In this document: positions 3,746 to 49,445 of the stretch, one piece after another
Layout of the letters: every line of letters begins with the position of its first letter
Numbering within the stretch: position 1 is the first letter of the stretch
Assembly (NCBI RefSeq): GCF_002102355.1
Contig: NZ_LQPT01000072.1
Location: 111,184 to 175,183, forward strand
Direction of reading: 5' to 3'
Source: Mycobacterium sherrisii
GTDB taxonomy: Bacteria > Actinomycetota > Actinomycetes > Mycobacteriales > Mycobacteriaceae
DNA length: 64,000 nucleotides
Notes under the pieces: generated by a model
Database searches by the model: none
Told to the model about the DNA's origin: nothing
The model's input: only the letters and a program-made list of their open reading frames with translations
Position numbers and translations under genes: made by a program

Positions 3746-3810
3746 GCGTTGAGTGTGCGCCTGCGGCGGCGACACGCAGGGCGGACCCGCCGCAGGTACA
3801 CACTCAAAAC
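3746..3810. repeat. Dispersed palindromic repeat, copy 1
   Basis: This is an imperfect palindrome in the gap between convergent pknG and the DUF559 gene; it runs a few bases into the 3' end of the latter. The left arm is 3746-3769, beginning GCGTTGAGTGTGCGCCTG, and the right arm is 3787-3810, ending ACACACTCAAAAC. About 20 of 24 positions pair. The central part contains GGCGACACGC. Related copies lie at 4719-4802, 34849-34935, 38961-39000 and 49366-49445. In this position it could act as a bidirectional terminator, but other copies are not placed between converging genes. Confidence 0.75.
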
Positions 3811-4667
3811 CGTTGCTGCACAGTCGAAGCGGCCAGAGCATCGCGGACACGGCGCACGATCGCGGCGGGCCGGTCTTCGGCCACCACCCGCACGATCGTC
3901 CAACCCAACTGCTCGAGGGTTTCCAGCCGGCGAATGTCCTTGAGATATTGCCGACGATCCGTTTGATGGTGGTCGCCGTCGTATTCCACCGCGACCATGC
4001 AGTCCTCCCAGCCTAGGTCGAGATAGGCCACCGGCATGCCGTCGACCCCGACGACCGGTATCTGGGTCTGCGGCCGCGGCAGCCCCGCATCGATGAGCAG
4101 CAAACGCAGATAGCTCTCGCGCGGCGATTGAGCACCCGCGTCGACCAGCTCCAGCGCTGATTCGAGCCGACGCAACCCCGGCGAGCGCGGGTGATCTGTC
4201 GCGACGCGAAGTGCGTCGTCGACTTTGAAACCCGTTGCCTGCGCCAGGGCGTCCAACCGCACCACCGCCGAACGGATGGCCCCGCGACGACCGATGTCGA
4301 AGGCCGTTCGCTCCGGCGTCGTCACCCGAAGTCCTGCGATCACCTGAATCTCGTTGTCCAACAGCGTGTCCCGGCGGGTTACTATGCCACGCGGGGTACG
4401 CGTGCTGGCATGTAACAGCTCGACCGGGACGCCGTCGGGGATCCACTTGCTGCCGTGCCAGGCGGCCGCGGCGGCCCCGGCGACGATACCGCGCCGTTTC
4501 GACCACAGCCAGGCGGCGACGATGCGCACTTGCAGTGACGCCTCGACGTGCCTGGGCAGATATACGTTGGGAAACACCGCGCGGTAACGCGTGCGCAGTT
4601 GATGGCGGTTCAGCGCCCCGGCCGCCAATGCTTCACTGCCAATGAACGGTTGACTGAGCTCCCACAT
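3804..4667 (-). CDS. AbiEi-like N-terminal domain plus DUF559 nuclease-fold protein
   Basis: This is a 287-residue protein of a type found in several copies in many actinobacteria. The N-terminal half resembles the winged-helix and AbiEi antitoxin-like region: the RAVFPNVYLP segment, then AAAAAWHGSKWIPDG and VTTPERTAFDIGRRG. The C-terminal third is a DUF559 (Vsr-like endonuclease fold) domain with an acidic core of Asp217, Glu221, Glu228, Asp230 and Asp232 followed by His233-His234 and a QLGWTIVRV strand. I chose the ATG at 4667 because homologues begin near there and the longer frame runs into a repeat. No AbiEii-type toxin gene is adjacent, so this is not an ordinary two-gene toxin-antitoxin pair. 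Palindromic repeats flank the gene on both sides. DNase activity is inferred from fold only. Confidence 0.8.
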   Translation of the reverse strand: MWELSQPFIGSEALAAGALNRHQLRTRYRAVFPNVYLPRHVEASLQVRIVAAWLWSKRRGIVAGAAAAAWHGSKWIPDGVPVELLHASTRTPRGIVTRRDTLLDNEIQVIAGLRVTTPERTAFDIGRRGAIRSAVVRLDALAQATGFKVDDALRVATDHPRSPGLRRLESALELVDAGAQSPRESYLRLLLIDAGLPRPQTQIPVVGVDGMPVAYLDLGWEDCMVAVEYDGDHHQTDRRQYLKDIRRLETLEQLGWTIVRVVAEDRPAAIVRRVRDALAASTVQQRF

Positions 4668-4718
4668 GACGGGAACTCTCGCACAGCGAGCCCGGCCGTG
4701 AATTCCGTTGTGCACAGG

Positions 4719-4802
4719 GGCGTTGAGTGTGCGTGTGTGGTGGGGACACGCCGGCACACCCCACCGTGGACGCGCACTCAACGCCACGAATGCACACTCA
4801 AC
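4719..4802. repeat. Dispersed palindromic repeat, copy 2
   Basis: The left arm GGCGTTGAGTGTGCG (4719-4733) pairs with CGCGCACTCAACGCC (4771-4785) at 14 of 15 positions. The inner part also pairs (GTGGGG with CCCCAC) around a core reading GGGGACACGCCGG. A further half-copy, TGCACACTCAAC, follows at 4791-4802. It lies upstream of the DUF559 gene and downstream of ackA, both on the minus strand. It could end ackA transcription or belong to the mobile or regulatory unit of the DUF559 gene. Confidence 0.8.
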
Positions 4803-4809
4803 AGGCGGG

Positions 4810-5970
4810 TCAGCCGGCCAGCAGGTTCGCGCAGTCGCGGGCAATGGCGAGTTCTTCGTTCGTCGGGACCATCAGCACGGCGATCGGCGAATCGTCGGCA
4901 GAGATCCGCTGCGCACGCTTGCCTGCCGACAGATTGCGCCCCTCGTCGAGCACGATGCCCAGCCGCTCCAGCCCCGCCATCGCGTCGCGCCGCACCGCCG
5001 CATCGTTTTCGCCGATGCCCCCGGTGAAGGTGATGACATCGGTGTTGCCCAGCACCGCCAGGTAGGCCCCGATATACTTGCGCAGCCGGTGAATGAACAC
5101 GTCATAGGCCAATTGCGCTGCGCCGTCGCCGGATTCGATCATCGCTCGCAACTTGCGAAAATCACGCTCACCGGCCAGACCCCAGACCCCAGAGCGATTG
5201 TTGAGCATCGACTCGATGGCATCGACGTCCATGTGCGCGGTGCGCCACAGGTAGCTGATCACCCCCGGGTCGATGTCGCCGCTGCGGGTGCCCATCACCA
5301 GCCCCTCCAACGGGGTCAGCCCCATCGAGGTATCCACCGGTCGGCCGCCGGCGATCGCGGAGGCCGAAGCGCCGTTGCCCAGGTGCAGCACGATCTGGTT
5401 CAGCTCGTCCAACGGTTGATGCAGGAACGCAGCGGCTTGCGCGCTCACGTATTCGTGCGACGTGCCGTGAAACCCGTAGCGGCGGATGTGGTACCGCTCG
5501 GCCAGGTCCCGGTCCATCGCATAGGTCGCGGCAGCGGGCGGCAGGCGGTGAAAGTACGCGGTGTCGAACACCGCGATGTGGGCCACGGCCGGCAGCAGTT
5601 TGCGCGCCACCTTGATGCCCTGAATCGCCGGGGGGTTGTGCAGCGGGGCGAGCTGCGACAGCTTCTCGAGGTCGGCAATCCGCGCATCGTCGATGAGCGT
5701 CGGTCGATAGAACTCGTTGCCGCCGTGCACCACCCGGTGCCCGACGGCCAGCAGCGCGCCCGGCTTCAGGTCAACTCCGGATTCGGCCATCTGCTCGAAC
5801 GCCAAGCGCAACGCCTCCTCGTGGGAGGCCACCCGTGATGACGGCTCACCGATCTGCTGGATGCCGCCGCCCGCCTGCGCCACGCCGGATTTCGGCTCGA
5901 CCAGCTGGTACTTCAGCGACGATGATCCCGAATTGATCACCAGCACAGGACGATTGGCGTGATCAGTCAT
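4810..5970 (-). CDS. ackA: Acetate kinase
   Basis: This 386-residue AckA converts acetyl phosphate and ADP to acetate and ATP in the cytoplasm. The N-terminal phosphate-binding strand [11 protein letters not shown] occupies residues 11-21. The family signatures [17 protein letters not shown] and [11 protein letters not shown] follow in order, and FTGGIGEND marks the C-terminal ATPase-fold lobe. The ATG at 5970 is the first codon consistent with homologues and overlaps the end of pta by 8 bases. The order fgd1-pta-ackA matches Mtb Rv0407-Rv0409. Together with Pta it forms the acetate overflow and assimilation pathway. Palindromic repeat copy 2 follows its stop. Confidence 0.97.
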
Positions 5971-8068
5971 CGCCGTCGCCCTGCGACTGAATCGCGGTGA
6001 TGGCAATCGTGTTGACGATGTCCTCGACCAGCGCACCGCGGGACAAATCGTTCACCGGTTTGCGCAGCCCTTGCAGCACCGGTCCGATCGCGATGGCCCC
6101 GGCACTGCGCTGCACCGCCTTGTAGGTGTTGTTGCCGGTGTTGAGATCGGGAAAAATCAGCACCGTGGCATGACCGGCCACCGGCGAGCCGCGCAGTTTG
6201 GTGGCGGCCACCGACGGCTCGATCGCGGCGTCATACTGGATCGGCCCCTCCACCAGCAGATCCGGCTGCCGCGAACGAACCAATTCCGTTGCCGTTCTGA
6301 CCTTGTCGACGTCGGCGCCACTGCCCGAATCCCCAGTGGAATAGGACAGCATCGCCACCTTCGGCTCGATCCCAAACCGCGCGGCGGTGCGCGCCGAGCT
6401 GATCGCGATATCGGCGAGCTGTTCGGGTGTCGGATCCGGGACGATCGCACAGTCGCCGTAGGCGAGCACCCGGTCGGGCAAACACATCAGGAAGATGCTG
6501 GAGACCGTCGAGACATCCGGGACGGTCCTGATGATCTCCAGAGCCGGGCGCACCGTGTGCGCGGTGGTGTGGGCGGCACCGGAAACCATTCCGTCGACCA
6601 TGCCGTTGTAGACCAGCATGGTGCCGAAATACGAGACATCGTGCATGATCTCGTGGGCCTGCTCGATGGTGACGCCTTTGGCCTTGCGCAACTCGGCGTA
6701 TTGGCCGGCGAACTGCTTGCACAGGTCCTCGTCGTACGGGTCGATGATCGTGGCGTCGTGCAGGTCGACGCCGAGTTCGCCGGCGCGCAACCGGATTCGA
6801 CCTTCGTCGCCCAGAATCGTCAGGTCGGCGATGCGCCGCTTCAGCACCCGTCCAGCCGCCTTGAGGATCCGGTCGTCGTCCCCCTCGGGCAGCACGATGT
6901 GTCTGCGGTCGGCGCGGGCCTGCTGGGTCAACCGATGGGTGAACATCTGGGGTGTGGTCACCGTCGGGATCGGAATCGCAAGCTGGGCAAGCAGATCGGC
7001 GATGTCGACGTGACGCTCCATCAACTCCACCGCGGTATCGATCTTGCGCTGCGAGTCGGCCGTGACCCGCCCCCGCGCCACGAAGGCGGCGCTGGCCGTG
7101 TCGTAGGTGCCCAACTCGTTTCCGATGATCGGCAGCCGCAGCCGCAGCCCGGCGACCAGCGCCGCAATCGAGGGATGCAGCTCGAATCCGCCGTTGAGCA
7201 CGATGCAGGACAACGATGGAAACCCTTCGGCCGCATGGGCACTCGCGGCGGCGAGCACGACGTCGGAGCGATCTCCCGGGGTGATCACCGCCATGCCGTC
7301 GCGCAACCGCTCCAGCACGTGGTCGGCTGTCATCCCGGCCACCAGCACGCCCATCACCTCACGCGCGACCAGTTCGGCGTCACCGCTGATCAGCGTCCCG
7401 CGGACGGCTTGACGCAGCTCCTCCACGGTCGGCGCCGCGAGCAGCGGTTCGTCGGGCAGCACATAGCTGGGCGGATCGAATCTGCCCAGCGCCTCCGCGA
7501 CCACCCCCATCTCGGCGGGCTCACACCGGCTGGCCACCACCGCCGCGGTGTGCGCACGCTGCGCGGCCAGTTCGGCCAGTGACACCTCGACGACCGTCGC
7601 GATCTGCTCGGCCGAACGCCCCTTCGCGCGCACCGCCAGCAAGACGGGGGCGCCGAGATTGACCGCGATGCGGGCATTGACCGAAAGTTCGGCGGGCGCG
7701 GTGACGTCGGTGTAGTCGCTGCCGACGATCACCACCGCGTCGCAGGACTGCGCCATGGCGTGATACGCGTCGACGATGTTGGCGATCGCGGTGTCGAGGT
7801 CGGCGTGGATGTCCTGGTAGGTGACGCCCACGCACTGTTCGTAGGACAGCTCCGCGGTGGTGCGCGTGAGCAGCAGCTCCAGGATGTAGTCACGCTCCTC
7901 TGGCGAGGCGCTGCCGCCGGAAACGCGCGTAATCGGCCGGAACACACCGACTTTGGCGACCGTCGCGGTCAATCGATTCAGTAATCCCAACGCGATCGTC
8001 GATTTGCCGGTCTCCGGCTCGGGCGCCGCGATATAGATCGCCGAAGCGGTCGGCGCGGTGTCAGGCAA
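5963..8068 (-). CDS. pta: Phosphate acetyltransferase, long form
   Basis: This enzyme interconverts acetyl-CoA and acetyl phosphate. At 701 residues it is the long type: an N-terminal P-loop/BioD-like domain ([14 protein letters not shown] near residues 15-28), a central DRTGG-type domain, and the C-terminal PTA_PTB catalytic domain from about residue 370, with [32 protein letters not shown] and [17 protein letters not shown] chose the TTG at 8068 because [16 protein letters not shown] aligns with the Mtb N-terminus and because it overlaps fgd1 by 8 bases, exactly like the pta/ackA junction. An AGG lies about 10 bases upstream. Another TTG at 8101 would add 11 residues. There is no ATG or GTG alternative near the expected N-terminus. 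Confidence 0.95.
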
Positions 8069-9071
8069 GTCGCCGCAACCTGGGCGCCAGATCCTTTTCA
8101 AAGAGTTCGAGGAACCGGCGCTGATCGTGTCCGGGTGCGTGGAAGACCAAGTGGTTAAGCCCCCACTGCACGTACTGCCCGACCTTTTCGACGGCCTCGT
8201 CGGGGTCCGAAGCGACGATCCACCGCTTGGCGACCTGCTCGATCGGCAGCTCGTCGGCGGCCTTCTCCATCTCCAGCGGGTCGTGGATGCTGGTCTTCTG
8301 TTCGGCCGTCAACGACAGCGGCGCCCAGAACCGGGTGTTCTCCAGTGCGAGGTCGGGATCGGTGTCGTAGGAGATCTTGATCTCGATCATCCGGTCGATG
8401 TCGTCGGGATTCTTGCCCGCGGCCTCGGCGCCCTCCCTCATCGCGGGAATGAGCTTGTCTTTGTACAGTTCCTCGCCCTTGCCGGAGGTGCAGATGAAGC
8501 CGTCGCCGGCCCGTCCGGCGTACTTGGCGACCTGCGGCCCGCCGGCCGCAATGTAGATGGGGATGCCGCCCTCGGGCACGTCGTAGATCGACGCGCCCTT
8601 GGTGTGGTAGTACTCGCCTTCGAAGTCGACCCGGTCACCCAGCCACAGCTCACGCATCAGCCGCACCGATTCGCGGAGCCGCGCGTAACGCTCCTTGAAT
8701 TCCGGCCATTCGCCCTCGTATCCGGTGGCGATCTCGTTGAGCGATTCGCCGGTGCCGACACCCAGGAAGATCCGGCCCGGGTAGAGACAGCCCATCGTGG
8801 CAAACGCCTGCGCGATCACGGCGGGGTTGTAACGGAACGTCGGGGTGAGCACCGACGTCCCCAGCAGCAGTCTTTCGGTGCGCTCGCCGACAGCGGTCAT
8901 CCAGGCGAGCGAGAACGGGGCGTGCCCGCCCTCGTGCCGCCACGGCTGGAAATGATCACTGACGGTGGCGCTGTCCATGCCGTGTGCTTCGGCGGCCACG
9001 GCTAGTTCGACGAGCTCACGCGGAGCAAATTGTTCGGCGGACGCCTTGTATCCAAGCTTCAGTTCGGCCAC
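8061..9071 (-). CDS. fgd1: F420-dependent glucose-6-phosphate dehydrogenase
   Basis: This is a 336-residue luciferase-like TIM-barrel enzyme that oxidises glucose 6-phosphate to 6-phosphogluconolactone while reducing coenzyme F420. It supplies reduced F420 for nitroreductases and stress defence. Asp39-His40 in TVSDHFQPW are the known F420/catalytic positions, and [14 protein letters not shown] carries the conserved glutamate. Length and sequence agree with Mtb Fgd1 (336). The start is GTG at 9071, preceded on the minus strand by GGAG and AAAGAACGA. It is the first gene of the fgd1-pta-ackA operon, with coupling through 8-base overlaps. Confidence 0.98.
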
Positions 9072-9164
9072 TCGTTCTTTCTACTCCATATGTTGTCACC
9101 GGCGACCCGCGACGTCCAAGGCCGCGACGCAGCACGCCCGGCTTTGCCGCGATCGCGATCGCCT

Positions 9165-9170
9165 TAGACT
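9165..9170 (+). promoter_or_regulatory. -10 box for a leaderless transcript of the metallo-hydrolase gene
   Basis: TAGACT fits the mycobacterial -10 pattern TANNNT and ends 7 bases before the ATG at 9178. That spacing puts the transcription start at or next to the start codon, giving a leaderless mRNA. No Shine-Dalgarno sequence is visible in front of the ATG, which agrees. Confidence 0.6.
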
Positions 9171-9177
9171 CGCGCGC

Positions 9178-9930: not shown

Positions 9931-10262
9931 CGGTCGCCAAATCGATCGCGCTGTTCGTGTTGGCGGCGCTGTTCGAGATCGGCGGCGCCTGGCTGGTGTG
10001 GCAGGGCGTCCGCGAACACCGCGGCTGGTTGTGGGCGGGCTGGGGCATGATCGCCCTCGGCGGCTATGGCTTCGTCGCCACCTTGCAGCCCGATCCGCAC
10101 TTCGGCCGGGTGTTGGCCGCGTACGGGGGCGTATTCGTGGCGGGCTCGCTGTTGTGGGGCATGGGGTTTGACGGGTTCCGTCCCGACCGCTGGGACGTCG
10201 CCGGCGCGTTGATCTGCCTGCTAGGCGTGGCGGTGATCATGTACGCTCCGCGAACTCGTTGA
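9927..10262 (+). CDS. YnfA/UPF0060 small membrane protein
   Basis: This 111-residue protein has four predicted membrane helices and belongs to the UPF0060 (YnfA) family, which is related in topology to small multidrug resistance transporters. Family hallmarks include [13 protein letters not shown] in helix 1, [16 protein letters not shown] between helices 2 and 3, and [18 protein letters not shown] before helix 4. The conserved glutamate in the first helix (FEIGG) is present. The GTG start overlaps the upstream hydrolase stop. Its 3' end overlaps the 3' end of the convergent monooxygenase gene by 26 bases. Substrate unknown; drug efflux has been proposed for some homologues. Confidence 0.9.
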
Positions 10263-14277: not shown

Positions 14278-14290
14278 CTTCACTTCACCT

Positions 14291-34848: not shown

Positions 34849-34935
34849 GGCGCCGAGTGTGCAGTTGCGGACTTGGCCGGGTAGCCGCGGCGGCTCCGGC
34901 CGGCGTGTCGTCACCCTAGACGCACAGTAAACGCC
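34849..34935. repeat. Dispersed palindromic repeat, copy 3 (degenerate)
   Basis: GGCGCCGAGTGTGCAG at the left pairs imperfectly with GACGCACAGTAAACGCC at the right, and the centre holds GGCCGGCGTGTCGTCACC, the reverse complement of the GACACGCCGG core seen in other copies. It lies between divergent GH76 and eutB genes, so it cannot be only a terminator. It makes the eutB ATG at 34940 an unlikely start. Confidence 0.65.
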
Positions 34936-34972
34936 AGCGATGCACAAGTTGACGTCCACCTCATACTGGAAT

Positions 34973-36382
34973 ATGCGCTACCGGCAAACCATTGCGGGGA
35001 CCACGCATTCGTTTACCGGACTGGTCGACGTGCTGGCCAAGGCCACACCGCTGCGCTCCGGGGACCAGCTCGCCGGGTGCGCCGCCGCATCGGATGCCGA
35101 GCGCGCCGCTGCGGCGTGGGTGCTGGCCGACATCCCACTGCCCACGTTCCTGGACGAGATGGTCGTGCCGTACGAGACCGACGAGATCACCCGGCTGATC
35201 ATCGACAGCCACGACCGCGCGGCCTTCGGCCCGATCGCACACCTGACGGTGGGCGGTCTGCGCGACTGGCTGTTGGACGCGGCCTCGCGCGATGACGGCA
35301 CGGCCCGAATCGCCGCGGTCTCGCCCGGCCTCACACCGGAAATGGTTGCCGCCGTGTCGAAGATCATGCGCAACCAGGACCTGATCCTGGCGGCCGCCGC
35401 GGCGACGACGACCGCCGCGTTTCGCACCACCATCGGCTTGCGGGGCACGCTGGCCACCCGATTACAGCCCAATCACCCCACCGACGATCCGCGCGGGATC
35501 GCCGCGGCGCTGCTCGACGGTCTGCTGATGGGCTGCGGTGACGCGGTGATCGGCATCAATCCGGCGACCGACTCGCCGCACGCGGCCGCCGAGTTGCTGC
35601 ACCTGCTCGACGACATTCGTCAGCGGTTCGCGATTCCCACCCAGTCGTGCGTGTTGTGTCACGTCACCACCACGATGGAGCTGATCGACCGGGGCGCGCC
35701 CGTCGACCTGGTGTTCCAGTCGATCGCCGGCACGGAGAAGGCCAACGCCGCGTTCGGCACCTCCCTCGCCATGCTGCAGGAGGCGAACCAGGCCGCCCGA
35801 TCGCTGCGCCGCGGCACCGTCGGCGACAACGTCATGTACCTGGAGACGGGACAGGGTGCGGCGCTGTCGGCAGGCGCGCACCTGGGGGTGGGAAACCAGC
35901 CGGTCGACCAGCAGACGCTGGAGGCGCGGGCCTACGCGCTGGCCCGCGCGTTGCAGCCGTTGCTGATCGACACCGTGGTCGGATTCATCGGTCCGGAGTA
36001 CCTCTACGACGGCAAGCAGATCATCCGGGCCGGGCTGGAGGACAACTTCTGCGGAAAGCTGCTCGGGCTGCCGATGGGCGTCGACGTCTGCTACACCAAC
36101 CACGCCGAGGCCGACCAGGACGACATGGACACCCTGTTGACGCTGTTGGGCGCGGCGGGCACCGCGTTCGTCATCGCCGTTCCCGGCGCCGACGACGTCA
36201 TGCTCGGGTATCAAAGCCTGTCCTTCCACGATGTGCTGTATGCGCGAAAAGCGTTGGGGCTGCGGCCCGCCCCCGAATTCGAAGCCTGGTTGGCCGGCCT
36301 GGGCATGGCCGACGCCGACGGCCGGATCCTGCCCGTCGACCTGGCGGCGTCGCCGCTGCGGGCACTGGTCGCCGGCCGATGA
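34973..36382 (+). CDS. eutB: Ethanolamine ammonia-lyase, large subunit
   Basis: This 469-residue EutB, with EutC and adenosylcobalamin, splits ethanolamine into acetaldehyde and ammonia. It can be aligned along its length with E. coli EutB: AKATPLRSGDQLAGCAAAS, GLRGTLATRLQPNHPTDD, GDAVIGINPATDS, CHVTTTMELIDRGAPVDLVFQSIAGTEKAN, YLETGQGAALSAGAH, GFIGPEYLYDGKQIIRAGLEDNF and CYTNHAEADQ. ATG at 34973 fits the E. coli N-terminus (MKLKTTLFG against MRYRQTIAG); an ATG 33 bases upstream falls in repeat-derived DNA. EutC overlaps its end. No microcompartment, eutA reactivase or ethanolamine transporter gene is adjacent. Confidence 0.96.
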   Translation: MRYRQTIAGTTHSFTGLVDVLAKATPLRSGDQLAGCAAASDAERAAAAWVLADIPLPTFLDEMVVPYETDEITRLIIDSHDRAAFGPIAHLTVGGLRDWLLDAASRDDGTARIAAVSPGLTPEMVAAVSKIMRNQDLILAAAAATTTAAFRTTIGLRGTLATRLQPNHPTDDPRGIAAALLDGLLMGCGDAVIGINPATDSPHAAAELLHLLDDIRQRFAIPTQSCVLCHVTTTMELIDRGAPVDLVFQSIAGTEKANAAFGTSLAMLQEANQAARSLRRGTVGDNVMYLETGQGAALSAGAHLGVGNQPVDQQTLEARAYALARALQPLLIDTVVGFIGPEYLYDGKQIIRAGLEDNFCGKLLGLPMGVDVCYTNHAEADQDDMDTLLTLLGAAGTAFVIAVPGADDVMLGYQSLSFHDVLYARKALGLRPAPEFEAWLAGLGMADADGRILPVDLAASPLRALVAGR

Positions 36383-37131
36383 CCGACGTGCAACCGACCG
36401 GTGGGTGGGCGCCACTGCGGGCGACGACCCCAGCGCGTATTGGGTTGGGTCGGGCCGGTGACTCGCTGCCGACGCGGCGGGTGCTGGAATTCCGGGCGGC
36501 CCATGCTGCGGCACGCGACGCCGTCCACGACCCGCTCGACGTCGACGGCCTCGTCGAGAGGCTGCGGGGCATCGGTGTCGACGAGCCGCCGCGGGTGTGC
36601 AGCCGCGCGGTCTCGCGCGCCGAGTACCTGCGCCGGCCCGACCTGGGCCGCGCCCCCGCGGACCTGTCGGGGTTGCCAAAGACCAACGCGGACATCGGTT
36701 TCGTGCTTGCGGACGGTCTGTCGCCCCGAGCGCTGGCCGAGCATGCGACGGGAATGCTCGACGCGCTGCTTTGCCAGTTCGACGGCCGCTACCGGATCGC
36801 CCCGCCGGTCATCGCGACGCAGGCGCGGGTCGCGCTCGGCGATCACGTCGGTGCAGCGCTGGGTGTCGCAACGGTTCTCGTGTTGATCGGGGAGCGGCCC
36901 GGCTTGTCATTCGCCGATAGTCTGGGCATCTATCTGACGCACCGGCCGGCGCCGGGGTGCACCGACGCCGACCGCAACTGCATCTCCAACATCCATCCCC
37001 CCGACGGTCTCGACTATGCCGGTGCCGCGGCCGTCGCCGCCGCGTTGGTCGCCGGCGCGCGCACCCTCGGTCGCTCCGGGGTTGCACTGAAGGACACGAC
37101 ACGCAATACGGCTGTGCCGCCTGGGTTTTGA
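36379..37131 (+). CDS. eutC: Ethanolamine ammonia-lyase, small subunit
   Basis: This 250-residue EutC forms the B12-binding interface with EutB. TPARIGLGRAGDSLPTRRVLEFRAAHAAARDAVHDPLD is the family N-terminus, and KTNADIGFVLADGLS, ARVALGDHVGAALG, LVLIGERPGLSFADSLGIYLTHRP and DADRNCISNIHPPDGLDY are typical further on. ATG at 36379 overlaps the eutB stop (ATGA). The gene ends 24 bases before the convergent IclR gene. Acetaldehyde and ammonia made here would enter acetyl-CoA and nitrogen metabolism; aldehyde dehydrogenase genes are not in the neighbourhood. Confidence 0.95.
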   Translation: MTDVQPTGGWAPLRATTPARIGLGRAGDSLPTRRVLEFRAAHAAARDAVHDPLDVDGLVERLRGIGVDEPPRVCSRAVSRAEYLRRPDLGRAPADLSGLPKTNADIGFVLADGLSPRALAEHATGMLDALLCQFDGRYRIAPPVIATQARVALGDHVGAALGVATVLVLIGERPGLSFADSLGIYLTHRPAPGCTDADRNCISNIHPPDGLDYAGAAAVAAALVAGARTLGRSGVALKDTTRNTAVPPGF

Positions 37132-37155
37132 AAGCGCACCGGCGCGGCCAGGCGG

Positions 37156-37944
37156 TTACCGCAGCTGCGGCAACCCGAGGCTGCGGCTGATGGTCAGCGC
37201 CGCGGTGCGCACCGCCGAGGCCACCCGCGCGGGCTGCAGCCGACCCGCCGGCCCGGTCACCGACAGCCCGGCGACGGCGCGGTGCCCGTCACGGCCGACG
37301 TAGCTTTCGACCACGATCGGCGCCGCGACACACACGGTCCCGGGGGCCCATTCCTCGCGGTCGTAGGCGACACCGGCCTCCCTGATCCTTGCCAACTCGC
37401 GCAGGAACTGGCCGCGGTCGGTGATCGTGGTGCCGGTGTTCTTCGTCAACGGTTCGGCCAGGGCCGGGTCGACGACGGAGTCGTGGCTAAAGGCCAGCAA
37501 CACCTTGCCCAACGCCGTGCAATACGCCGGCAGCCACGCCCCGATGGACGTGGATGACGGGGCGCTGCGCCGGCCGGTGAGCTTCTCGATGCAGAGCACC
37601 TCGGCGCCGTCGAGGACACCGAGGTGCACGGTCTCGCCGGTCGCTGTCACCAGGTCGGTCATGAACGGTCGCGCGCAGGCCCGCAGCCTCCGTGATGCGG
37701 GGACGTGCGCGCCGAGCTCGAACAGGCGAAGTCCCAACCGATATCCGTAAGATCCCCGCTCGAGCATCCGGTGGGCCACCAAGTCGGTGGCCAACCGGTG
37801 CACGGTCGCCTTCTTCATCCCGATCAGCCGGACTAATTCGGACAGCCCCACCTCGCCGGGCGAGGTGGCAACGGCGTCCATGATGATCAGCAACCGGTCA
37901 CTGACCGTGCGCTGCTCGCCGGATTCGTCTGCGCTCAGCCACAT
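37156..37944 (-). CDS. IclR-family transcriptional regulator
   Basis: The protein is 262 residues. The N-terminal winged helix-turn-helix is at about residues 14-75 (RLLIIMDAVATSPGEVGLSELVRLIGMKKATVHRLATDLVAHRMLE). The IclR effector domain follows: RPFMTDLVTATGETVHLGVLDG, GAWLPAYCTALGKVLLA, and GVAYDREEWAPGTVCVAAPI. It converges with eutBC and is a candidate regulator of ethanolamine use, though convergence alone is weak evidence. An alpha/beta hydrolase gene lies 18 bases upstream on the same strand, so both may be in one transcript. Effector unknown. Confidence 0.92.
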   Translation of the reverse strand: MWLSADESGEQRTVSDRLLIIMDAVATSPGEVGLSELVRLIGMKKATVHRLATDLVAHRMLERGSYGYRLGLRLFELGAHVPASRRLRACARPFMTDLVTATGETVHLGVLDGAEVLCIEKLTGRRSAPSSTSIGAWLPAYCTALGKVLLAFSHDSVVDPALAEPLTKNTGTTITDRGQFLRELARIREAGVAYDREEWAPGTVCVAAPIVVESYVGRDGHRAVAGLSVTGPAGRLQPARVASAVRTAALTISRSLGLPQLR

Positions 37945-37962
37945 CTGCGCAGGATACCCGTG

Positions 37963-38769
37963 TCACAGCCCTTTTCGGGCCAGCCATTGCAGGACCACAT
38001 CGGCAACGTCTTTCCAGCCATGGTCGATGGTCAGCGAGTGTCCGCGGCCGCGGAAGAGGTGGAACTCGGTGTCCGACTGGCCTTTCGCGTACAGCCGATG
38101 GGCTGCCTGGGTGACCTTGAGTGGGACGGTGTGGTCGTCGGTTCCGGACGTCAACAGCAAGGGGCCGCGGGTGGTGTTGTGCACGTCGACCTTGGCCGGT
38201 GAGTTGCTGGAGAAGTTGGCGGTTGCGCCCTGGAACAGCGGCAGACCCGGCCCCGGAATGCTGAGCGAGGCGTGCAGCGCGTCGGATTCCTCCCGGCTCA
38301 GCGTGTTGCCAAAGGCGTAATGGAACTGCTTGGGGTTCAACGAGACTGTCCCGCGCTTGGTGCTCGGGTGACCCGGGATCGGGAAGCCCGATCGCACCTG
38401 CGCCCACGGCACCACCTTGACGCCCTTGATCGGGGCCGGGTCGATGCCGGCGGCCGCCGCCGCGAGGCCCGAGTCGAGTAGCAGCTGCGCGATCAGACCG
38501 CCGAAGGAATGCCCGACGACGATCGGTCGCTGCCCGGAGGAGCGGATCAGGTTGGCGTAATGGTCGACAATTTCCGGGATTCCGACATTGTTGAGGGCAG
38601 CGGCGTTGCGGCGCGTGTCGAGCACCGTCGCGCTGTCGCCGGGCCAGCCCGGTGCGGAGGCCGCGTATCCGTGCCTCTCGGACAGGTCGACCCACGACTG
38701 CCAGGCCGTCGAGTGGATCCACAGGCCGTGGATGAACACGACCGGGTGTTGTTTGCTTGGCGCTGTCAT
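37963..38769 (-). CDS. Alpha/beta hydrolase
   Basis: This 268-residue alpha/beta hydrolase starts with PVVFIHGLWIHSTAWQSW, the oxyanion-hole region. The nucleophile serine is in VVGHSFGGLIAQLLLD, the acid in LLTSGTDDHTVP, and the final histidine in FRGRGHSLTIDHGW. It has no signal peptide with the ATG at 38769, which has AAGAAGG a few bases upstream; the longer frame (to 38916) has no homology. The substrate is not evident; related proteins include lipases and esterases. It is upstream of the IclR gene on the same strand and not found between Rv0365c and Rv0368c of Mtb. Confidence 0.88.
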   Translation of the reverse strand: MTAPSKQHPVVFIHGLWIHSTAWQSWVDLSERHGYAASAPGWPGDSATVLDTRRNAAALNNVGIPEIVDHYANLIRSSGQRPIVVGHSFGGLIAQLLLDSGLAAAAAGIDPAPIKGVKVVPWAQVRSGFPIPGHPSTKRGTVSLNPKQFHYAFGNTLSREESDALHASLSIPGPGLPLFQGATANFSSNSPAKVDVHNTTRGPLLLTSGTDDHTVPLKVTQAAHRLYAKGQSDTEFHLFRGRGHSLTIDHGWKDVADVVLQWLARKGL

Positions 38770-38960
38770 GGCATGCCCTTCTTTGTGTCGTGGAGTGTTG
38801 CAGCACAGCGTGTTTGACGTTGCGGCGCGGTACGGCCGGTCACGCTGCGCTCCTCGGTCCATTGGTTGAGCGAGCTTGGATGAGACCAGCTTTGCGACCG
38901 CGCGGCCCGCTTTCACGCGATTGGTCCGCCCAATGGACCGGTCTTAGTGGTGACGGCGCC

Positions 38961-39000
38961 CAGGGCGCACACTGAACGCCCGGGACGTGCACGCAACGCC
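38961..39000. repeat. Dispersed palindromic repeat, copy 4 (half copy)
   Basis: The sequence GGCGCACACTGAACGCC followed by GTGCACGCAACGCC matches the right-hand ends of copies 2 and 5. The left arm is missing or diverged. It lies in the 249-base gap between the alpha/beta hydrolase start and the end of the CoxE-like gene, both on the minus strand. The rest of that gap (38770-38960) shows no gene or clear signal. Confidence 0.55.
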
Positions 39001-39018
39001 GCCGGACGCGGGGGCTGA

Positions 39019-40212: not shown

Positions 40213-40218
40213 GGACCG

Positions 40219-43296: not shown

Positions 43297-43330
43297 ATGG
43301 CTCGTTACTCGCTCTGCATCGTCGCGACGC

Positions 43331-45739
43331 CTAGATCGGTGGCCTGGCTCTGCCCTGCATGGCCTCCCAGACCCGCGACGGCGTCAACGGCATGTCGGCA
43401 TGCCGAACCTCGAACGGCGCCAACGCATCCACCACCGCGTTGACCACGGCCGGCGGCGACCCGACGGTGGCCGACTCGCCGACCCCCTTCGCGCCGATCG
43501 GATGATGTGGTGACGGCGTGACGGTGTGCCCGGTTTCCAGGTGCGGAACCTCCATCGCGGTCGGGATCAGGTAGTCCATCAGCGACCCGCCCAGGCAGTT
43601 GCCCTCCTCGTCGAAGGCGATCATCTCCATCAGCGCCATCCCGATCCCGTCGACGATGCCGCCGTGCACCTGGCCCTCGATGATCATCGGATTGATCCGG
43701 GTGCCGCAGTCGTCGACCGCCAGGAACCGCCGCACCTTGACCACCGCGGTGCCCGGATCGACGTCCACCACACAGAAATACGCGCCGTACGGGTACGTCA
43801 GGTTCTCCGGGTTGTAGCAGATCTGAGCGTCCAGGCCGCCCTCGAGACCCTCCGGCAGATCGCTGGCGCCGTGCGCCCGCATCGCGATGTCGGCGATCGT
43901 CACCGATGCCGACGGGTCACCCTTGACGTGGAACGAGCCCTTCTCCCACTCCAAGTCGGCAACCGAGACCTCGAGCATGCCCGAGGCGATGATCTTCGCC
44001 TTGTCCCGCACCTTGCGGGCCACCAGCGCGGCCGCCGCCCCGGACACCGGCGTGGAGCGGCTGCCGTAGGTACCCAGCCCGAACGGCGTCTGGTCGGTAT
44101 CGCCGTGCACCACGTCGATGTCGTCGGGCGGGATACCAAGCTCCTCGGCGACGATCTGGGCGAACGTCGTCTCGTGCCCCTGACCCTGGGTCTGCACCGA
44201 AAGCCGTACCACCGCTTTGCCCGTCGGGTGCACGCGCAGCTCGCACCCGTCGGCCATGCCGAGGCCGAGGATGTCCATGTCCTTGCGGGGCCCGGCACCC
44301 ACGGCCTCGGTGAAGAAGGACATGCCAATGCCCATCAGCTCGCCCCGTTCGCGCCTGCGCCGCTGTTCCTCTCGTAATGCGTCGTAGCCGATCATGTCCA
44401 TGGCCTTGCGCATCGTGGTCTCGTAGTCACCCGAGTCGTACGTCCAGCCCGTCTTGCTTCGGTACGGGAACTGGTCGGGCCGCAGCAGGTTCCGCAGCCG
44501 CAGCTCCGCGGGATCCATCTTCAGGTCGAACGCGAGGCAATCCACAAGGCGCTCAACGAAATACACCGCCTCGGTGATCCGGAACGAACACGCGTAGGCC
44601 ACCCCGCCGGGGGCTTTGTTGGTGTACACCGCGGTCATGTGACAGTAGGCGGCTTCGATGTCGTAACTGCCGGTGAACACCCCGAAGAACCCCGCCGGGT
44701 ACTTTACCGGCGCCGCGGTGCCGTTGAACGCGCCGTGGTCGGCGAGCACGTTAGACCGGATGGCCAGGATCTTGCCGTCGTTGGTGGCCGCAATCTCACC
44801 GACCATGATGTAGTCTCGCGCGAACCCGGTGGAGGTGAGGTTCTCGCTGCGATCCTCCATCCACTTCACCGGCTTGCCCAACAGCAGCGAGCCGACGATC
44901 GCGCAGACATACCCGGGGTAAATCGGCACCTTGTTGCCGAATCCGCCGCCGATGTCGGGCGAGATGACCTGAATCTTGTGCTCGGGCAGCCCGGCGACCA
45001 ACGCGTAGAGCGTGCGGTGCGCGTGCGGGGCCTGCGTGGTGGACCACAACGTCAGCTTTCCGCTGACCGGGTCCAAATCGGCGACCGCGCCGCAGGTCTC
45101 CATCGGCGCCGGGTGCACCCGCGGGTAGACCATCTCCTGGGTGACCACCACGTCGGCCTTCACGAACGCGGCCTCGGTGGCGGCCGCGTCGCCGGTCTCC
45201 CAGTCGAAGCAGTGGTTGTCGGTCTTGCCGTCGAGGTCAGTGCGGATCACCGGAGCCGACGGATCCAGCGCCCGGCGGACGTCGACGACGGGGTCCAGCG
45301 GTTCGTATTCGACGTCGATCAGCTCGAGCGCGTCGCGCGCCGAATACCGGTCTTCGGCGACGACGAAGGCCACCTCTTGGCCTTGGAAGCGCACCTTGTC
45401 GGTGGCCAGCACGGCCTGCACGTCATTGGACAGCGTCGGCATCCAGGCCAGGCCCTTGGCCGCCAGGTCGGCCCCGGTGACCACCGCCTTGACCTTCGGA
45501 TGTGCTTGGGCGGCAGTGACATCGATGCCGACAATGGTGGCGTGCGCGTACGGCGAACGCAGGATCGCCAGGTGCAGCATGCCGGGCAGCACGACATCGT
45601 CGACGTAGCGGCCGCGCCCGCGGATGAACCTCGGATCCTCCTTGCGGAGCATTCGGCCGTAACCACAAGGCTTTTGGTCGTTGTCGGCAATGTCTTCCGG
45701 CGACGGGGGCCTGGGTGCTTCTTCTTTGAAGGTGGTCAT
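43331..45739 (-). CDS. coxL: Aerobic CO dehydrogenase large subunit, form I
   Basis: This 802-residue molybdenum hydroxylase subunit oxidises CO to CO2. The form I signature AYxCSFR is present as VAYACSFR with the copper-binding cysteine at residue 384, so this is a true CO dehydrogenase and not a form II relative. Molybdopterin-binding parts include GGGFGNKVPIYPGYV, QTQGQGHETTFAQIVAEELG, GTYGSRSTPVSG and GAKGVGESATVGSPPAVVNAV, with the catalytic glutamate in the last. ATG at 45739 overlaps coxS; the upstream in-frame extension is a shadow of coxS. With it, the host can draw energy from trace CO. Confidence 0.97.
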   Translation of the reverse strand: MTTFKEEAPRPPSPEDIADNDQKPCGYGRMLRKEDPRFIRGRGRYVDDVVLPGMLHLAILRSPYAHATIVGIDVTAAQAHPKVKAVVTGADLAAKGLAWMPTLSNDVQAVLATDKVRFQGQEVAFVVAEDRYSARDALELIDVEYEPLDPVVDVRRALDPSAPVIRTDLDGKTDNHCFDWETGDAAATEAAFVKADVVVTQEMVYPRVHPAPMETCGAVADLDPVSGKLTLWSTTQAPHAHRTLYALVAGLPEHKIQVISPDIGGGFGNKVPIYPGYVCAIVGSLLLGKPVKWMEDRSENLTSTGFARDYIMVGEIAATNDGKILAIRSNVLADHGAFNGTAAPVKYPAGFFGVFTGSYDIEAAYCHMTAVYTNKAPGGVAYACSFRITEAVYFVERLVDCLAFDLKMDPAELRLRNLLRPDQFPYRSKTGWTYDSGDYETTMRKAMDMIGYDALREEQRRRRERGELMGIGMSFFTEAVGAGPRKDMDILGLGMADGCELRVHPTGKAVVRLSVQTQGQGHETTFAQIVAEELGIPPDDIDVVHGDTDQTPFGLGTYGSRSTPVSGAAAALVARKVRDKAKIIASGMLEVSVADLEWEKGSFHVKGDPSASVTIADIAMRAHGASDLPEGLEGGLDAQICYNPENLTYPYGAYFCVVDVDPGTAVVKVRRFLAVDDCGTRINPMIIEGQVHGGIVDGIGMALMEMIAFDEEGNCLGGSLMDYLIPTAMEVPHLETGHTVTPSPHHPIGAKGVGESATVGSPPAVVNAVVDALAPFEVRHADMPLTPSRVWEAMQGRARPPI

Positions 45740-46224
45740 GACGTCGCCTCCGCCGCCGCCTCGGTATCGTGCTGCGCCGCCCATTGAATGGACCGCACGA
45801 TGGTCGTGTATCCGGTACACCGGCAGATCTGCCCGGAGATGGCTTCCCGGATGGTTTCCTCGTCGGGGTTCGGTTCGCGGTCCAGCAGGGCGCGGGCGGT
45901 GATCATCATGCCCGGAGTGCAGAACCCGCATTGCAGCCCGTGGCAACGCATGAAGCCCTCTTGCACCGGGTCGAGCGTGCCGTCGGCGTGGGCCAGGCCC
46001 TCCACCGTGCGCACGCTGTGGCCCGATGCCATCACGGCGAGCATGGTGCACGACTTCACCGGCACACCGTCGACGTCGACGACGCAGGTGCCGCAGTTGC
46101 TGGTGTCGCAGCCCCAGTGGGTTCCGGTGAGCCGTAGGTGATCGCGCAGGAAGTGCACGAGCAGCAGCCGGGGTTCGACGTCGGCGCTGACCGGTTCGCC
46201 GTTGACGGTCATGTTCACCTGCAT
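45736..46224 (-). CDS. coxS: CO dehydrogenase small (iron-sulfur) subunit
   Basis: This 162-residue protein has two [2Fe-2S] clusters. The plant-type ferredoxin cluster uses Cys39, Cys44, Cys47 and Cys59 (GCDTSNCGTC, SC). The second, all-helical cluster domain uses the cysteines in RCHGLQCGFC and ICRCTGY. It carries electrons from the molybdenum centre of CoxL to the FAD of CoxM. The order M-S-L is that of form I clusters. ATG 2 bases after coxM; stop overlaps coxL. Confidence 0.97.
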   Translation of the reverse strand: MQVNMTVNGEPVSADVEPRLLLVHFLRDHLRLTGTHWGCDTSNCGTCVVDVDGVPVKSCTMLAVMASGHSVRTVEGLAHADGTLDPVQEGFMRCHGLQCGFCTPGMMITARALLDREPNPDEETIREAISGQICRCTGYTTIVRSIQWAAQHDTEAAAEATS

Positions 46225-46226
46225 GG

Positions 46227-47105
46227 TCAGTTCCCCTCTGCCCGGACACGTTGGGCGGCGGTGCGTAACGTTCGGACAGTCAATTCGGAGGCCAGGTGTC
46301 GCTTGTATTCGGCGGTGCCGCGGACATCGGTGACGGGGTCGCAGGCCTGCGCGGCACGTCGGCCCGCGTCGGCGAAGACCTCGTCGGTGGCCGGCTGTCC
46401 CGCCAGGGACGCGGCGACTTCGGCCAGTGCCTCGCGGTCCACGTTGACCGCGGTCAGCCCCAGGCGCGCCGCGGCGATCGTTGCGTCGTCGAGGGTCACC
46501 GACGCGCCCGCCGCAGCCACGGCCCAGTCACCCACCCGCCGCTCCACTTTGGCGTATGCACTGGAAGTCTTGTGGCGCAACGGGATACGGATCTCGACAA
46601 GCATCTCGTTGAAGGCCAGTGCGGTTTCGTACGGTCCGAGGATGAAGTCGTCGATCGGTATCTCGCGTTCACCCGACGGGCCGCGGGCCAGGCACACCGC
46701 GTCCAGCGCCTCGCAGACAGTGGAGAGGTCTTCGGCCGGATCCGCCTGGCACAGTGAGCCGCCCAGGGTGCCGCGGTTACGGACGACGGGGTCGGCGATC
46801 ACCCGTTCGGCGTCGCGAAAGATCGGGCAGACGGCGGCCAGGGTGTCGGACTCCAGCAGCTCGCGGTGGCGGGTCATGGCGCCGATGCGGACCAGCGTCG
46901 GGTCGGTGATCACGTAGCCCAATTCGAGCGCGAGGTCGTTGATGTCGACCAGGTACTCGGGGTTGGCGATCCGCAGCTTCATCATCGGCAGCAGGCTGTG
47001 CCCGCCGGCGACCACTCGCGCGCCGTCGCCCAGCCGATCGAGTAGGCCGATGGCGTGGTCGACACTGGTGGCGCGTTCGTATTCGAAGGGGCCGGGTACT
47101 TGCAT
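46227..47105 (-). CDS. coxM: CO dehydrogenase medium (FAD) subunit
   Basis: This 292-residue flavoprotein subunit carries the two FAD-binding signatures VVAGGHSLLPMMKLR and RNRGTLGGSLCQADPAEDL. It passes electrons from the iron-sulfur subunit to the quinone pool. ATG at 47105 has GAGG about 8 bases upstream; a GTG nine bases earlier is an alternative. It follows the first xdhC-like gene after 66 bases. Confidence 0.96.
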   Translation of the reverse strand: MQVPGPFEYERATSVDHAIGLLDRLGDGARVVAGGHSLLPMMKLRIANPEYLVDINDLALELGYVITDPTLVRIGAMTRHRELLESDTLAAVCPIFRDAERVIADPVVRNRGTLGGSLCQADPAEDLSTVCEALDAVCLARGPSGEREIPIDDFILGPYETALAFNEMLVEIRIPLRHKTSSAYAKVERRVGDWAVAAAGASVTLDDATIAAARLGLTAVNVDREALAEVAASLAGQPATDEVFADAGRRAAQACDPVTDVRGTAEYKRHLASELTVRTLRTAAQRVRAEGN

Positions 47106-47171
47106 GTGACGCACCTCACTGGGCAGGGGAACATCAGTGTCGTGCGCTCTGACCTGGCCGTCAATAGCGAG

Positions 47172-48332
47172 TTAAGCGATCGTTGAAGTCGCCTCGAAGC
47201 CCCCGGTGACTTGCTGATCGTGGTGGATACGGCCCAGCAACTGAGCCAGGGGCCGGCCGCCGCCGCCCCACCGCCTGGCGATGATGTCCGCGACGATCGA
47301 GACCGCGGTCTCCTCCGGCGTGCGTGCGCCGAGGTCCAGTCCGATCGGGCTGGCCAGCCGGCCCAGCTCGGCATCGGTGAGCCCCGCCGCCCGCAGCCGC
47401 GCCATCCGGTCGTCATGCGTGCGTCGCGAGCCCATCGCCCCGACGTATCCGACGCGCGGCAGGCGCAGCGCCACCTCGAGCGCCGGGACATCGAACTTTG
47501 GGTCGTGGGTGAGCACGCAGATCACCGTGCTCTCGTCGATAGCGCCCGCGTCGGCCTGCGCGGCGAGGTAGCGGTGCGGCCAGTCGACGACGACTTGTTC
47601 GGCCGCTGGAAAACGGGACGGTGTGGCGAAGACGGCGCGGGCGTCGCACACGGTGACCCGGTAGCCGAGGAAGGCGCCCTGCTGCGCCAGCGCGGCGGCG
47701 AAATCGATGGCGCCGAACACCAGCATCCGCGGTCGCGGTGCGTGGCAAGAGACGAAAACCTCCATGCCGTCGGCGAGCCGCTGACCGTCGGGCCCGTAGG
47801 TGAGCACCTCGCTGCGGCCCAAGGCCAGCAGGCCGCGTGCGTCGTCGGTCACCGCCGCGTCGGCACGCGCCGAACCCAGTGACGCCGCCACGGCATCCGG
47901 GCGGACGACGAGCCGACGGCCGACCCGGCTCGCGTCCGGGTGGGCGATCACGGTCGCGACGGCTACCGGCCGGTGCGCGTCGATGTCGCCGGCGATCGCG
48001 CCGAGTTCGGGAAACGTCGTCTGCGACACGGCTTCGACGAAGATGTCGATGATGCCGCCGCATGTCAGGCCGACCGCGAAGGCGTCGTCGTCGCTGACCC
48101 CATAGCGTTCCAGCGTCGGTGTGCCCGTCCGCGCCACTTCGGTGGCGGTGTCGTAGACGGCGCCCTCCACGCAGCCGCCCGACACCGAACCGCTCACCGA
48201 TCCGTCCGGCGCGACGACCATCGCGGCGCCGGGTAGCCGCGGCGCCGACCGGAATGTCCGCACCACCGTTGCCAGCCCGGCGGTGTGACCGGCACGCCAA
48301 ATCGACACTAATTCGGCAAGTACGTCGCGCAC
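47172..48332 (-). CDS. XdhC/CoxF-like molybdenum cofactor insertion protein (Rv0376c-like)
   Basis: This 386-residue protein has an XdhC_CoxI domain (GLATVVRTFRSAPRLPGAAMVVAPDGSVSGSVSGGCVEG), a middle section, and the Rossmann XdhC_C domain (MLVFGAIDFAAALAQQGAFLGYRVTVCDAR, LPRVGYVGAMGSRRTHDDR, SPIGLDLGARTPEETAVSI). It is the first gene of the cox operon and probably prepares the sulfurated cofactor for CoxL. GTG at 48332 is 6 bases from a -10 box on the minus strand and is probably leaderless. Equivalent to Mtb Rv0376c (about 380). Confidence 0.92.
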   Translation of the reverse strand: MRDVLAELVSIWRAGHTAGLATVVRTFRSAPRLPGAAMVVAPDGSVSGSVSGGCVEGAVYDTATEVARTGTPTLERYGVSDDDAFAVGLTCGGIIDIFVEAVSQTTFPELGAIAGDIDAHRPVAVATVIAHPDASRVGRRLVVRPDAVAASLGSARADAAVTDDARGLLALGRSEVLTYGPDGQRLADGMEVFVSCHAPRPRMLVFGAIDFAAALAQQGAFLGYRVTVCDARAVFATPSRFPAAEQVVVDWPHRYLAAQADAGAIDESTVICVLTHDPKFDVPALEVALRLPRVGYVGAMGSRRTHDDRMARLRAAGLTDAELGRLASPIGLDLGARTPEETAVSIVADIIARRWGGGGRPLAQLLGRIHHDQQVTGGFEATSTIA

Positions 48333-48366
48333 CCCTTCAAATTAGGCCCCACGTAGGCTGATTGCC
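48333..48366. promoter_or_regulatory. Divergent leaderless promoters of the cox operon and its LysR gene
   Basis: Only 34 bases separate the two start codons. On the plus strand TAGGCT (48354-48359) ends 7 bases before the lysR ATG. On the minus strand TAATTT (plus-strand positions 48339-48344) ends 6 bases before the GTG of the cox operon. Both therefore predict leaderless messages, and the two RNA polymerase footprints must overlap. A LysR dimer acting here would affect both directions. Confidence 0.6.
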
Positions 48367-49332
48367 ATGACTCCGGCTCAACTCCGGGCCTATTCGGCCG
48401 TGGTGCGGTTGGGCTCGGTGCATGCGGCCGCCGCCGAACTCGGTGTTTCCGACGCCGGGATCTCGATGCACGTCGCGGCGCTGCGCAAAGAACTCGACGA
48501 CCCGCTGTTCACCAGAACCGGTGCGGGGCTGGCGTTCACGCCGGGCGGGCTGCGTCTGGCCAGCCGGGCGGTGGAAATCCTGGGCCTGCAACAGCAAACC
48601 GCCATCGAGGTCACCGAGGCCGCACACGGACGCCGGCTGCTGCGGATCGCGGCGTCGACGACGTTTGCCGAACACGCGGCGCCCGGTCTGATCGAGTTGT
48701 TCTCGTCGCGAGCCGACGACCTGTCGGTGGAGCTGAGCGTGCACCCGACCAGACGGTTTCGCGAGCTGATCGCGTCGCGTGCCGTCGACATCGCGATCGG
48801 GCCGGCCAGCGAAAGTTCCGCCGCCCCGGACGAGTCGATCTTCGTGCGGCCCTTCCTGAAATACCAGATCATCACCGTGGTCGCACCGAATAGTCCACTG
48901 GCCGTGGGTGTTCCGTCGCCGGGGCTGCTGCGCCAGCAGCAGTGGATGCTGGGGCCGTCGGCGGGCAGCGTGGATGGCGAGATCGCAACCATGTTGCGCG
49001 ACTTGGCAATTCCGGAGTCGCAGCAGCGAATCTTCCAGAGCGATGCCGCCGCGCTGGAAGAGGTGCAGCGGGTCGGCGGGGTGACGCTGACCATTGGCTT
49101 CGCCGTCGCCAAGGACCTCGCCGCCGGGAGGCTGGTACACGTCAACGGTGCGGGCCTAGACCGCTCGGGCGAATGGTGCGCGGCGACGCTGGCGCCGGCG
49201 GCGCGACAGCCGGCGGTCTCGGAACTGGTCCGCTTCATCACCACCCCGCGATGTATTCAGGCGATGATCCGCGGTTCGGGCGTGGGTGTGACGCGGTTTC
49301 GGCCGAAGATTCACGTCACGCTGTGGAGTTGA
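48367..49332 (+). CDS. LysR-family regulator, probable cox regulator (Rv0377-like)
   Basis: This 321-residue LysR protein has the N-terminal helix-turn-helix AYSAVVRLGSVHAAAAELGVSDAGISMHVAALRKELDDPLFTR and an effector domain from about residue 90 (LLRIAASTTFAEHAAPGLIELFSSRA). It is divergent from the CO dehydrogenase operon across 34 bases, the classical arrangement for a LysR regulator and its target. It matches Mtb Rv0377 in position. The inducer may be CO-related or a growth-state signal; nothing in the sequence shows a heme or gas-binding motif. It is probably leaderless. Confidence 0.93.
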   Translation: MTPAQLRAYSAVVRLGSVHAAAAELGVSDAGISMHVAALRKELDDPLFTRTGAGLAFTPGGLRLASRAVEILGLQQQTAIEVTEAAHGRRLLRIAASTTFAEHAAPGLIELFSSRADDLSVELSVHPTRRFRELIASRAVDIAIGPASESSAAPDESIFVRPFLKYQIITVVAPNSPLAVGVPSPGLLRQQQWMLGPSAGSVDGEIATMLRDLAIPESQQRIFQSDAAALEEVQRVGGVTLTIGFAVAKDLAAGRLVHVNGAGLDRSGEWCAATLAPAARQPAVSELVRFITTPRCIQAMIRGSGVGVTRFRPKIHVTLWS

Positions 49333-49365
49333 CGTCGCGCGCCTCTTCCACTGTGCAGCTACGGA

Positions 49366-49445
49366 TTTGAGTGTGTACCGGCGGCGCCCCGACCCGGCGT
49401 GTCGCCGCCGCAGACGCACACGCAACGCCGGGAACGCACACTCGC
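49366..49445. repeat. Dispersed palindromic repeat, copy 5
   Basis: TTTGAGTGTGTACCGGCGGCG at the left pairs with CGCCGCCGCAGACGCACACGCAACG on the right. The core CCCGGCGTGTCGCCGCC is the reverse complement of GGCGGCGACACGCCGGG. A second right-hand half-site, AACGCACACTCGCC, follows as in copies 2 and 4. It lies between convergent lysR and the RNA methyltransferase gene. Confidence 0.75.

Follow-up and report, generated by a model that had tools for sequence, protein, structure and literature searches.

To our knowledge, REP sequences together with RAYT are so far the only palindromes scattered through bacterial genomes for which a cognate enzyme is known. In the REPtrons outlined in PMC8266576, a chromosomal gene lies beside palindromes that have many dispersed intergenic copies, the copy number follows the gene, and enzyme and palindrome co-vary. 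For proteins of the AbiEi type, the relevant passages of PMC7319586 report that AbiEi of S. agalactiae and Rv2827c of M. tuberculosis each bind, upstream of the own gene, paired 23-bp inverted repeats separated by 3 or 13 bp. Moreover, MTES_1575 is named as a Vsr-type REase in PMC3710099, and the passages on it there describe no palindromes or repeats for it.

The locus analyzed here lies in a stretch of 64,000 nucleotides from Mycobacterium sherrisii, referred to as the window. It resembles the REPtrons, as far as these are outlined in PMC8266576, in that a gene stands beside palindromes and the copy number of the palindromes tracks the gene, with two genome exceptions (L142 and L162). Unlike in REPtrons, the enzyme is an AbiEi-Vsr nuclease and not a HUH/Y1 transposase, and the half-sites stand at fixed spacing, with no GTAG in the consensus and no sign of a selected single-strand hairpin. 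The enzyme shares a Vsr-like, homing-type nuclease fold with the free-standing homing endonuclease I-Bth0305I, from which it differs by the fused AbiEi-like module, the palindromic ends and the tens of solo copies per genome. As in type IV toxin-antitoxin AbiEi, the AbiEi fold is present in the window nuclease; unlike the antitoxin, this protein has a nuclease domain and genome-dispersed sites, and its gene has pknG and ackA as neighbours in the window, with no adjoining DUF1814 toxin gene.

No prior description of a nuclease-palindrome system was found in the open-access literature searched. We count the system as new because neither its enzyme nor its DNA architecture is related to that of REPtrons, although the way of life is alike. 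It presents the same palindrome-enzyme association with a non-homologous enzyme, in a genus that includes major pathogens as well as in other genera of the order, and may account for part of the intergenic repeats in slow-growing mycobacteria. It also gives a context for nucleases known only as DUF559 or MTES_1575, and the many paralogues with a predicted binding site offer a ready test system.

Palindromes and nuclease gene in the window

All five repeat sites listed by the first-pass annotation of this DNA are present in the window, with their ends shifted by a few bases (Table 1). That annotation had overlooked the nuclease gene bracketed by copies 1 and 2, and also two palindromes of other families. 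It had further described a second half-site about 5 bases after the first; the extra half-sites do exist, and they are correctly described by a 20-bp period. The right half-site of copy 1 overlaps the stop codon of the nuclease gene, and copy 5, when read in the sequence, has a partial half-site 20 bp further out. Copy 5 is also the top match of the genome in the profile scan, with 83.9 bits, being part of the model by construction. In total, 20 half-site matches with at most 3 mismatches were found in the window versus 11.3 expected, and none of 100 shuffles reached 20.

Table 1. Positions of the repeat copies, the nuclease gene and the palindromes of other families in the window
Feature	Position	Strand	Remarks
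Palindrome copy 1	3745-3811	+	26 bp past the pknG stop; 81 bits to model R1 (built with copy 1)
Nuclease gene, 287 aa	3804-4667	-	Start codon at 4667 inferred
Palindrome copy 2	4719-4785	+	51 bp upstream of the inferred nuclease start; nearly perfect 67-bp dyad
Copy 2 extra half-site	4792-4805	+	20 bp outward of the right half-site of copy 2
Second-family palindrome	30451-30506		Matches own paralogue L214 (G000:C28:46.9 kb)
Copy 3 extra half-site	34849-34862	-	20-bp register
Palindrome copy 3	34869-34935	-	Divergent gap (GH76 / eutB)
Half copy 4	38967-39000	-	Half-sites 38967-38980 and 38987-39000, 20 bp apart
Palindrome copy 5	49363-49429	-	Convergent gap (unnamed gene / SpoU methylase)
Third-family palindrome	53395-53448		Matches own paralogue L213 (G000:C28:65.4 kb); half-site starts 36 bp apart

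The nuclease is the only gene found here that shares the ends of the palindrome. Foldseek matches assign an AbiEi-like fold to residues 1-176 and a Vsr/I-Bth0305I-like, homing-type endonuclease fold to residues about 180-283; these matches were looked at a second time, and families missing from them are not thereby excluded. The Pfam match to MTES_1575 / DUF559 lies below the cut-off. The window protein was aligned with 89 of 92 listed relatives (alignment A4). A phage- or plasmid-borne element was considered and rejected, the matches being 2 weak ones among 50,697 phage records and 7 among 72,556 plasmid records, all with less than 60% identity.

Anatomy and genomic placement of the repeat

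We searched the 5.56-Mb draft genome with the half-site, allowing at most 2 mismatches, and obtained 127 matches against 27 for the reversed pattern used as control. The possibility raised by the first-pass annotation, that a genome-wide scan might find no more copies than expected by chance, was not borne out. A profile was then made by sequence only from 12 copies of the own genome (model R1, whose matches to those 12 are by construction), and 34 places from its scan were followed, down to an E value of about 0.13. According to our own gene-calling script, 32 of these places are intergenic and two weak ones lie inside genes. The family is larger than the five copies noted before, with about 32 intergenic copies in the genome.

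The earlier statement that the copies occupy convergent, tandem and divergent gaps is correct, with 17, 12 and 3 of the 32 copies, respectively, and can be complemented by an excess of convergent ones. In fact, 17/32 copies stand in convergent gaps, versus 29/229 among the copy-free gaps (P about 5e-8; all by our own gene caller). When merely copy-free gaps of at least 67 bp are taken, 5/88 are convergent, and the contrast becomes stronger, though the copies themselves lengthen the gaps that hold them. Most copies are found at 3' ends rather than at promoters.

The architecture is rigid. Inverted 14-bp half-sites, with starts 53 bp apart, flank a one-sided core, CGACACGCCG, and further half-sites run outward, mostly in 20-bp steps; the largest array, with five of them per side, also shows some steps of 35 bp. 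Among the loci of the own genome, half-sites on opposite strands are most often 73 bp (26 times), 53 bp (20 times) and 93 bp (13 times) apart, and those on the same strand 20 bp (44 times), 40 bp (10 times) and 60 bp (4 times). Gap-free alignment over 67 bp was possible for 27 of the 32 intergenic copies (alignment A5), the five omitted ones having indels or being half copies. The core is nearly invariant in this alignment, the mean column identity is 75%, and many solo copies have diverged.

Standard pairing between the 24 arm pairs amounts to 71.0%, exactly as in shuffles (71.0%). This absence of arm covariation favours protein half-sites over a selected hairpin, although neutral decay of a once-perfect palindrome would look alike. 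In RNA folding of seven copies, copy 1 (z -5.4), copy 2 (z -4.8) and one other (z -3.2) folded well, while the remaining four, copy 5 included, were no better than shuffles (|z| <=1.4). A simple terminator scan found no terminator-like site at the five window copies, which agrees with the earlier view that they are not simply terminators. An RNA hairpin or terminator was consequently rejected on the grounds of weak folding in 4/7 copies, the lack of covariation and of a terminator-like site, and the lack of an Rfam match.

As to the remark that no named mycobacterial family with this sequence is known, Rfam gave no match at gathering score in the window, and the arm and core strings were met in the open-access literature only in papers unrelated by title. 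GTAG is absent from both the 67-bp consensus of 27 copies and the 107-bp consensus of 12 copies. The Y1/HUH transposase family PF01797 gave no match in the own genome, with the control matched in 5 of 14 genomes, and a RAYT was rejected on this basis. As to the REP/MITE label proposed earlier, the behaviour of the repeat conforms to it; in the strict sense the repeat is no REP, with no Y1/HUH transposase match in the genome, no GTAG in the consensus and no pairing covariation.

Co-occurrence of nucleases and palindromes across genomes

Among 80 named pknG loci, 63 contain nuclease and repeat, none the nuclease alone, 2 the repeat alone and 15 neither, in a tally that omits low-scoring repeat rows and in which some of the 63 positives rest on weak matches (13-20 bits). 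The two loci with the repeat alone owe this to a contig end. In 20 of the 63 positive loci, repeats were recorded on either side of the nuclease. The same pknG site holds the nuclease in most of the 80 loci, and in this the nuclease resembles a settled gene more than a mobile one. In Mycobacterium sp. 1274761.0 (L195:10846-11541), the nuclease gene in the pknG gap points the other way.

We further compared 36 congeners, scoring at most 64 candidates per genome and counting both strands of each palindrome, as in the profile scans of the own and the named genomes. At least 22 repeat matches were present in 9/9 congeners with an orthologue (at least 69% identity) versus 2/27 without (Fisher p 5.8e-7), where G020 was scored as having no orthologue and the repeat type of paralogues was scored for the listed best ones only. 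The two repeat-rich exceptions, G013 and G014, have nucleases 59-61% identical and own palindromes with the same half-site type.

A further scan covered 23 named genomes at E values of at most 1e-4, with both strands counted. The nine genomes with the nuclease at pknG have 14-78 repeat matches. M. methanotrophicum, where the nuclease matches only in part, has 6, and the L180 genome, whose contig stops before the nuclease would appear, has 28. The other twelve are without the nuclease at pknG, and ten of them have 0-4 matches: none in M. asiaticum (two strains), M. leprae, L181, L186, M. stellerae and AZCC_0083, 2 in M. intermedium, and 4 each in M. wolinskyi and M. kyorinense DSM 45166. The exceptions are the L142 genome with 12 matches and the L162 genome with 32, where the gene may have been lost recently or the assembly may have gaps. 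The best of the remaining paralogues in these two genomes reach 53% and 59% identity, and neither of the two L162 paralogues that were first examined at their ends has this half-site type. Whole-palindrome tandem arrays with a period of about 170-179 bp stand beside the nuclease in M. asiaticum and M. palustre (L168:10763-11373 and L163:10624-11059), and represent possible variable-number loci. In M. leprae, L270 and L281 are nuclease relics interrupted by several stop codons, and their ends yielded no palindrome.

The nuclease family has 2-16 matches per Mycobacterium genome (E 1e-8), and paralogous nucleases often carry very different palindrome arms, at the stop codon and upstream. A strong inverted repeat was found at the stop in 50/83 nuclease loci versus 36/400 control gene ends; these loci, 84 minus one duplicate, include orthologues and three with internal stops, and are not independent. 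By our criteria, no strong inverted repeat is present at the stop in the other 33/83 loci, nor in 9/35 of a smaller set, where L211 and L217 are the same own nuclease. Upstream and downstream flanks were mutually best in 44/78 loci, including those of other genera of the order with nucleases 32-39% identical, although simple or tandem repeats account for a small number of the self matches (L264, L282).

Three further families were analyzed. The second recurs at about ten additional places of the own genome, with distances of 12, 30 and 42 bp between its half-sites and with 56 matches versus 16 in the control. The third has six inverted pairs at 35-36 bp spacing in the own genome, and this spacing alone carries it, the raw count of 28 being barely above the 20 of the reversed control. 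The fourth, with 51-bp spacing, has 8-27 matches in seven congeners in which the cognate nuclease was seen and 0-17 in the other 30 (one-sided Mann-Whitney p 2e-4), some of which also have such a nuclease, G006 among them with such sites around a nuclease. Over 2821 pairs, palindrome similarity tracks the AbiEi-like half more than the nuclease half, and the effect is modest. Given the nuclease part, partial r is 0.19 for residues 1-60 (0/200 permutations as high) and 0.27 for residues 61-175, and the other way round 0.04 and 0.00. Residues 1-60 add only 0.02 after allowing for residues 61-175, so the arm reader is not pinned down within the AbiEi-like half.

We also compared orthologous sites, the nearest named species by PknG similarity being M. 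tilburgii (95%), M. ahvazicum (91%) and M. genavense (91%). In M. rhizamassiliense, a solo copy of about 96 bp was gained; the convergent gap that received it measures 16-22 bp in nine aligned relatives and 4 and 13 bp in two others, and two further relatives have other DNA of about 1.9 kb there. No target duplication is visible at this gain, the one clean, polarised case. The first-pass annotation had proposed to look for insertion polymorphism at orthologous gaps and for target duplications. Presence does differ between orthologous gaps, with one polarised gain, and the picture of a dispersed, mostly intergenic repeat of REP/MITE-like behaviour holds; the MITE label itself finds no support, as no target duplication was seen at the one clean gain. 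Empty and nuclease-filled pknG gaps coexist in relatives about 95% identical over the last 1.9 kb of pknG, and the boundaries at the nuclease-empty sites are blurred, where a search for target duplication was without result.

The gap of copy 5 holds a palindrome of another family in M. genavense. M. tilburgii lacks the second-family site, of which M. genavense has a smaller version; the third-family site is conserved in M. genavense. M. genavense is also without the eut module between copies 3 and 4 (34866-38989) and has a single palindrome at the junction. The palindromes appear to mark recombination junctions, as at this module, and species-variable sites. Absences in M. tilburgii may be losses, since gaps are numerous throughout this region in that species. 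In its genome (G061, contig C12), repeat matches of identical score stand in opposite orientation at about 24-46 kb and 110-131 kb, and this doubling is either an inverted duplication or an assembly artefact.

Proposed explanation and its alternatives

We consider it rather probable that the repeats represent the ends of an element encoding the nuclease, together with solo copies, i.e. a REPtron-like system on an unrelated enzyme. The basis is the cognate palindromes at both gene ends, the dispersed solo copies, the co-occurrence and the one polarised gain. In each family, one gene would encode an AbiEi-like DNA-binding module fused to a Vsr-like, homing-type endonuclease module. The AbiEi-like half would occupy the half-sites in dimeric or multimeric form, so that the spacing would be fixed at 53 and 20 bp, and the protein bound at the upstream copy may repress its own gene. 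The nuclease half would nick or cut at or near the core, and repair would transfer a copy of the palindrome, with or without the gene, to DNA free of genes. An inserted palindrome may be tolerated best where two stop codons converge. Solo copies would later decay, and could serve as recombination junctions. Binding, cutting and nuclease-driven movement are what we infer from these patterns, and current activity is doubtful because many solo copies have diverged. Against this reading also speak the missing target duplication at the one clean gain, the blurred boundaries of the nuclease-empty sites, the constant pknG site of the nuclease, the repeats of the L162 and L142 genomes, and the nuclease loci with no strong inverted repeat at the stop.

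A possible, though less probable, alternative is a resident AbiEi-nuclease acting as regulator or in defence, whose operators, decoys or chromosome-organising sites are the palindromes, kept by selection rather than spread by the nuclease. Such a network would account for the rigid half-site geometry, the arms without covariation and the core columns nearly invariant in 27 copies. It is also consistent with the upstream copy at promoter position, and the passages of PMC7319586 on AbiEi homologues describe autoregulation. The preference for convergent gaps would fit as well. Against it speak the position of most copies at 3' ends, with 17 convergent and 3 divergent copies of 32, the palindromes at both ends of the gene, the solo copy gained in one species, and one family standing in place of another at the same gap. 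Moreover, 10 of the 12 named genomes without the pknG nuclease have 0-4 matches, the other two having 12 and 32.

Passive hitchhiking, in which slippage during replication or an unlinked transposase spreads the repeats and the nuclease is a mere neighbour, is already disfavoured and appears quite unlikely. The absence of a visible target duplication, the arrays of about 170-179 bp in M. palustre and M. asiaticum, and the repeats of the L162 and L142 genomes without a nuclease at pknG would agree with it, but against it stand the many divergent nucleases, some from other genera of the order, that have cognate palindromes on either side, as well as the nuclease-repeat co-occurrence across genomes. 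A classical REP/RAYT family or bidirectional terminators can be dismissed as very improbable, for although the copies are palindromic, intergenic, in tens and often at 3' ends, and some fold well as RNA, there is no Y1 transposase match, no GTAG in the consensus, no arm covariation and no terminator-like site at the copies, and 4/7 folded copies do no better than shuffles (|z| <=1.4).

Beyond this locus, the preferred reading of a nuclease-encoding element can be extended to a wider proposal, which in our estimate has about an even chance of being right: AbiEi-Vsr fusion nucleases would be widespread selfish elements in Mycobacteriales, and perhaps in the wider Actinomycetota, with binding-site palindromes as ends and solo palindromes scattered. 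Each lineage would have its private palindrome and a single genome could contain several independent families, which would make this a second, independent REPtron-style invention. Apart from this, nucleases of other palindrome types (L227, L228, L230, L232, L236, L238, L239, L240 and L246) were seen in many congeners to lie convergent at seemingly one conserved gene end, thiolase-like by eye.
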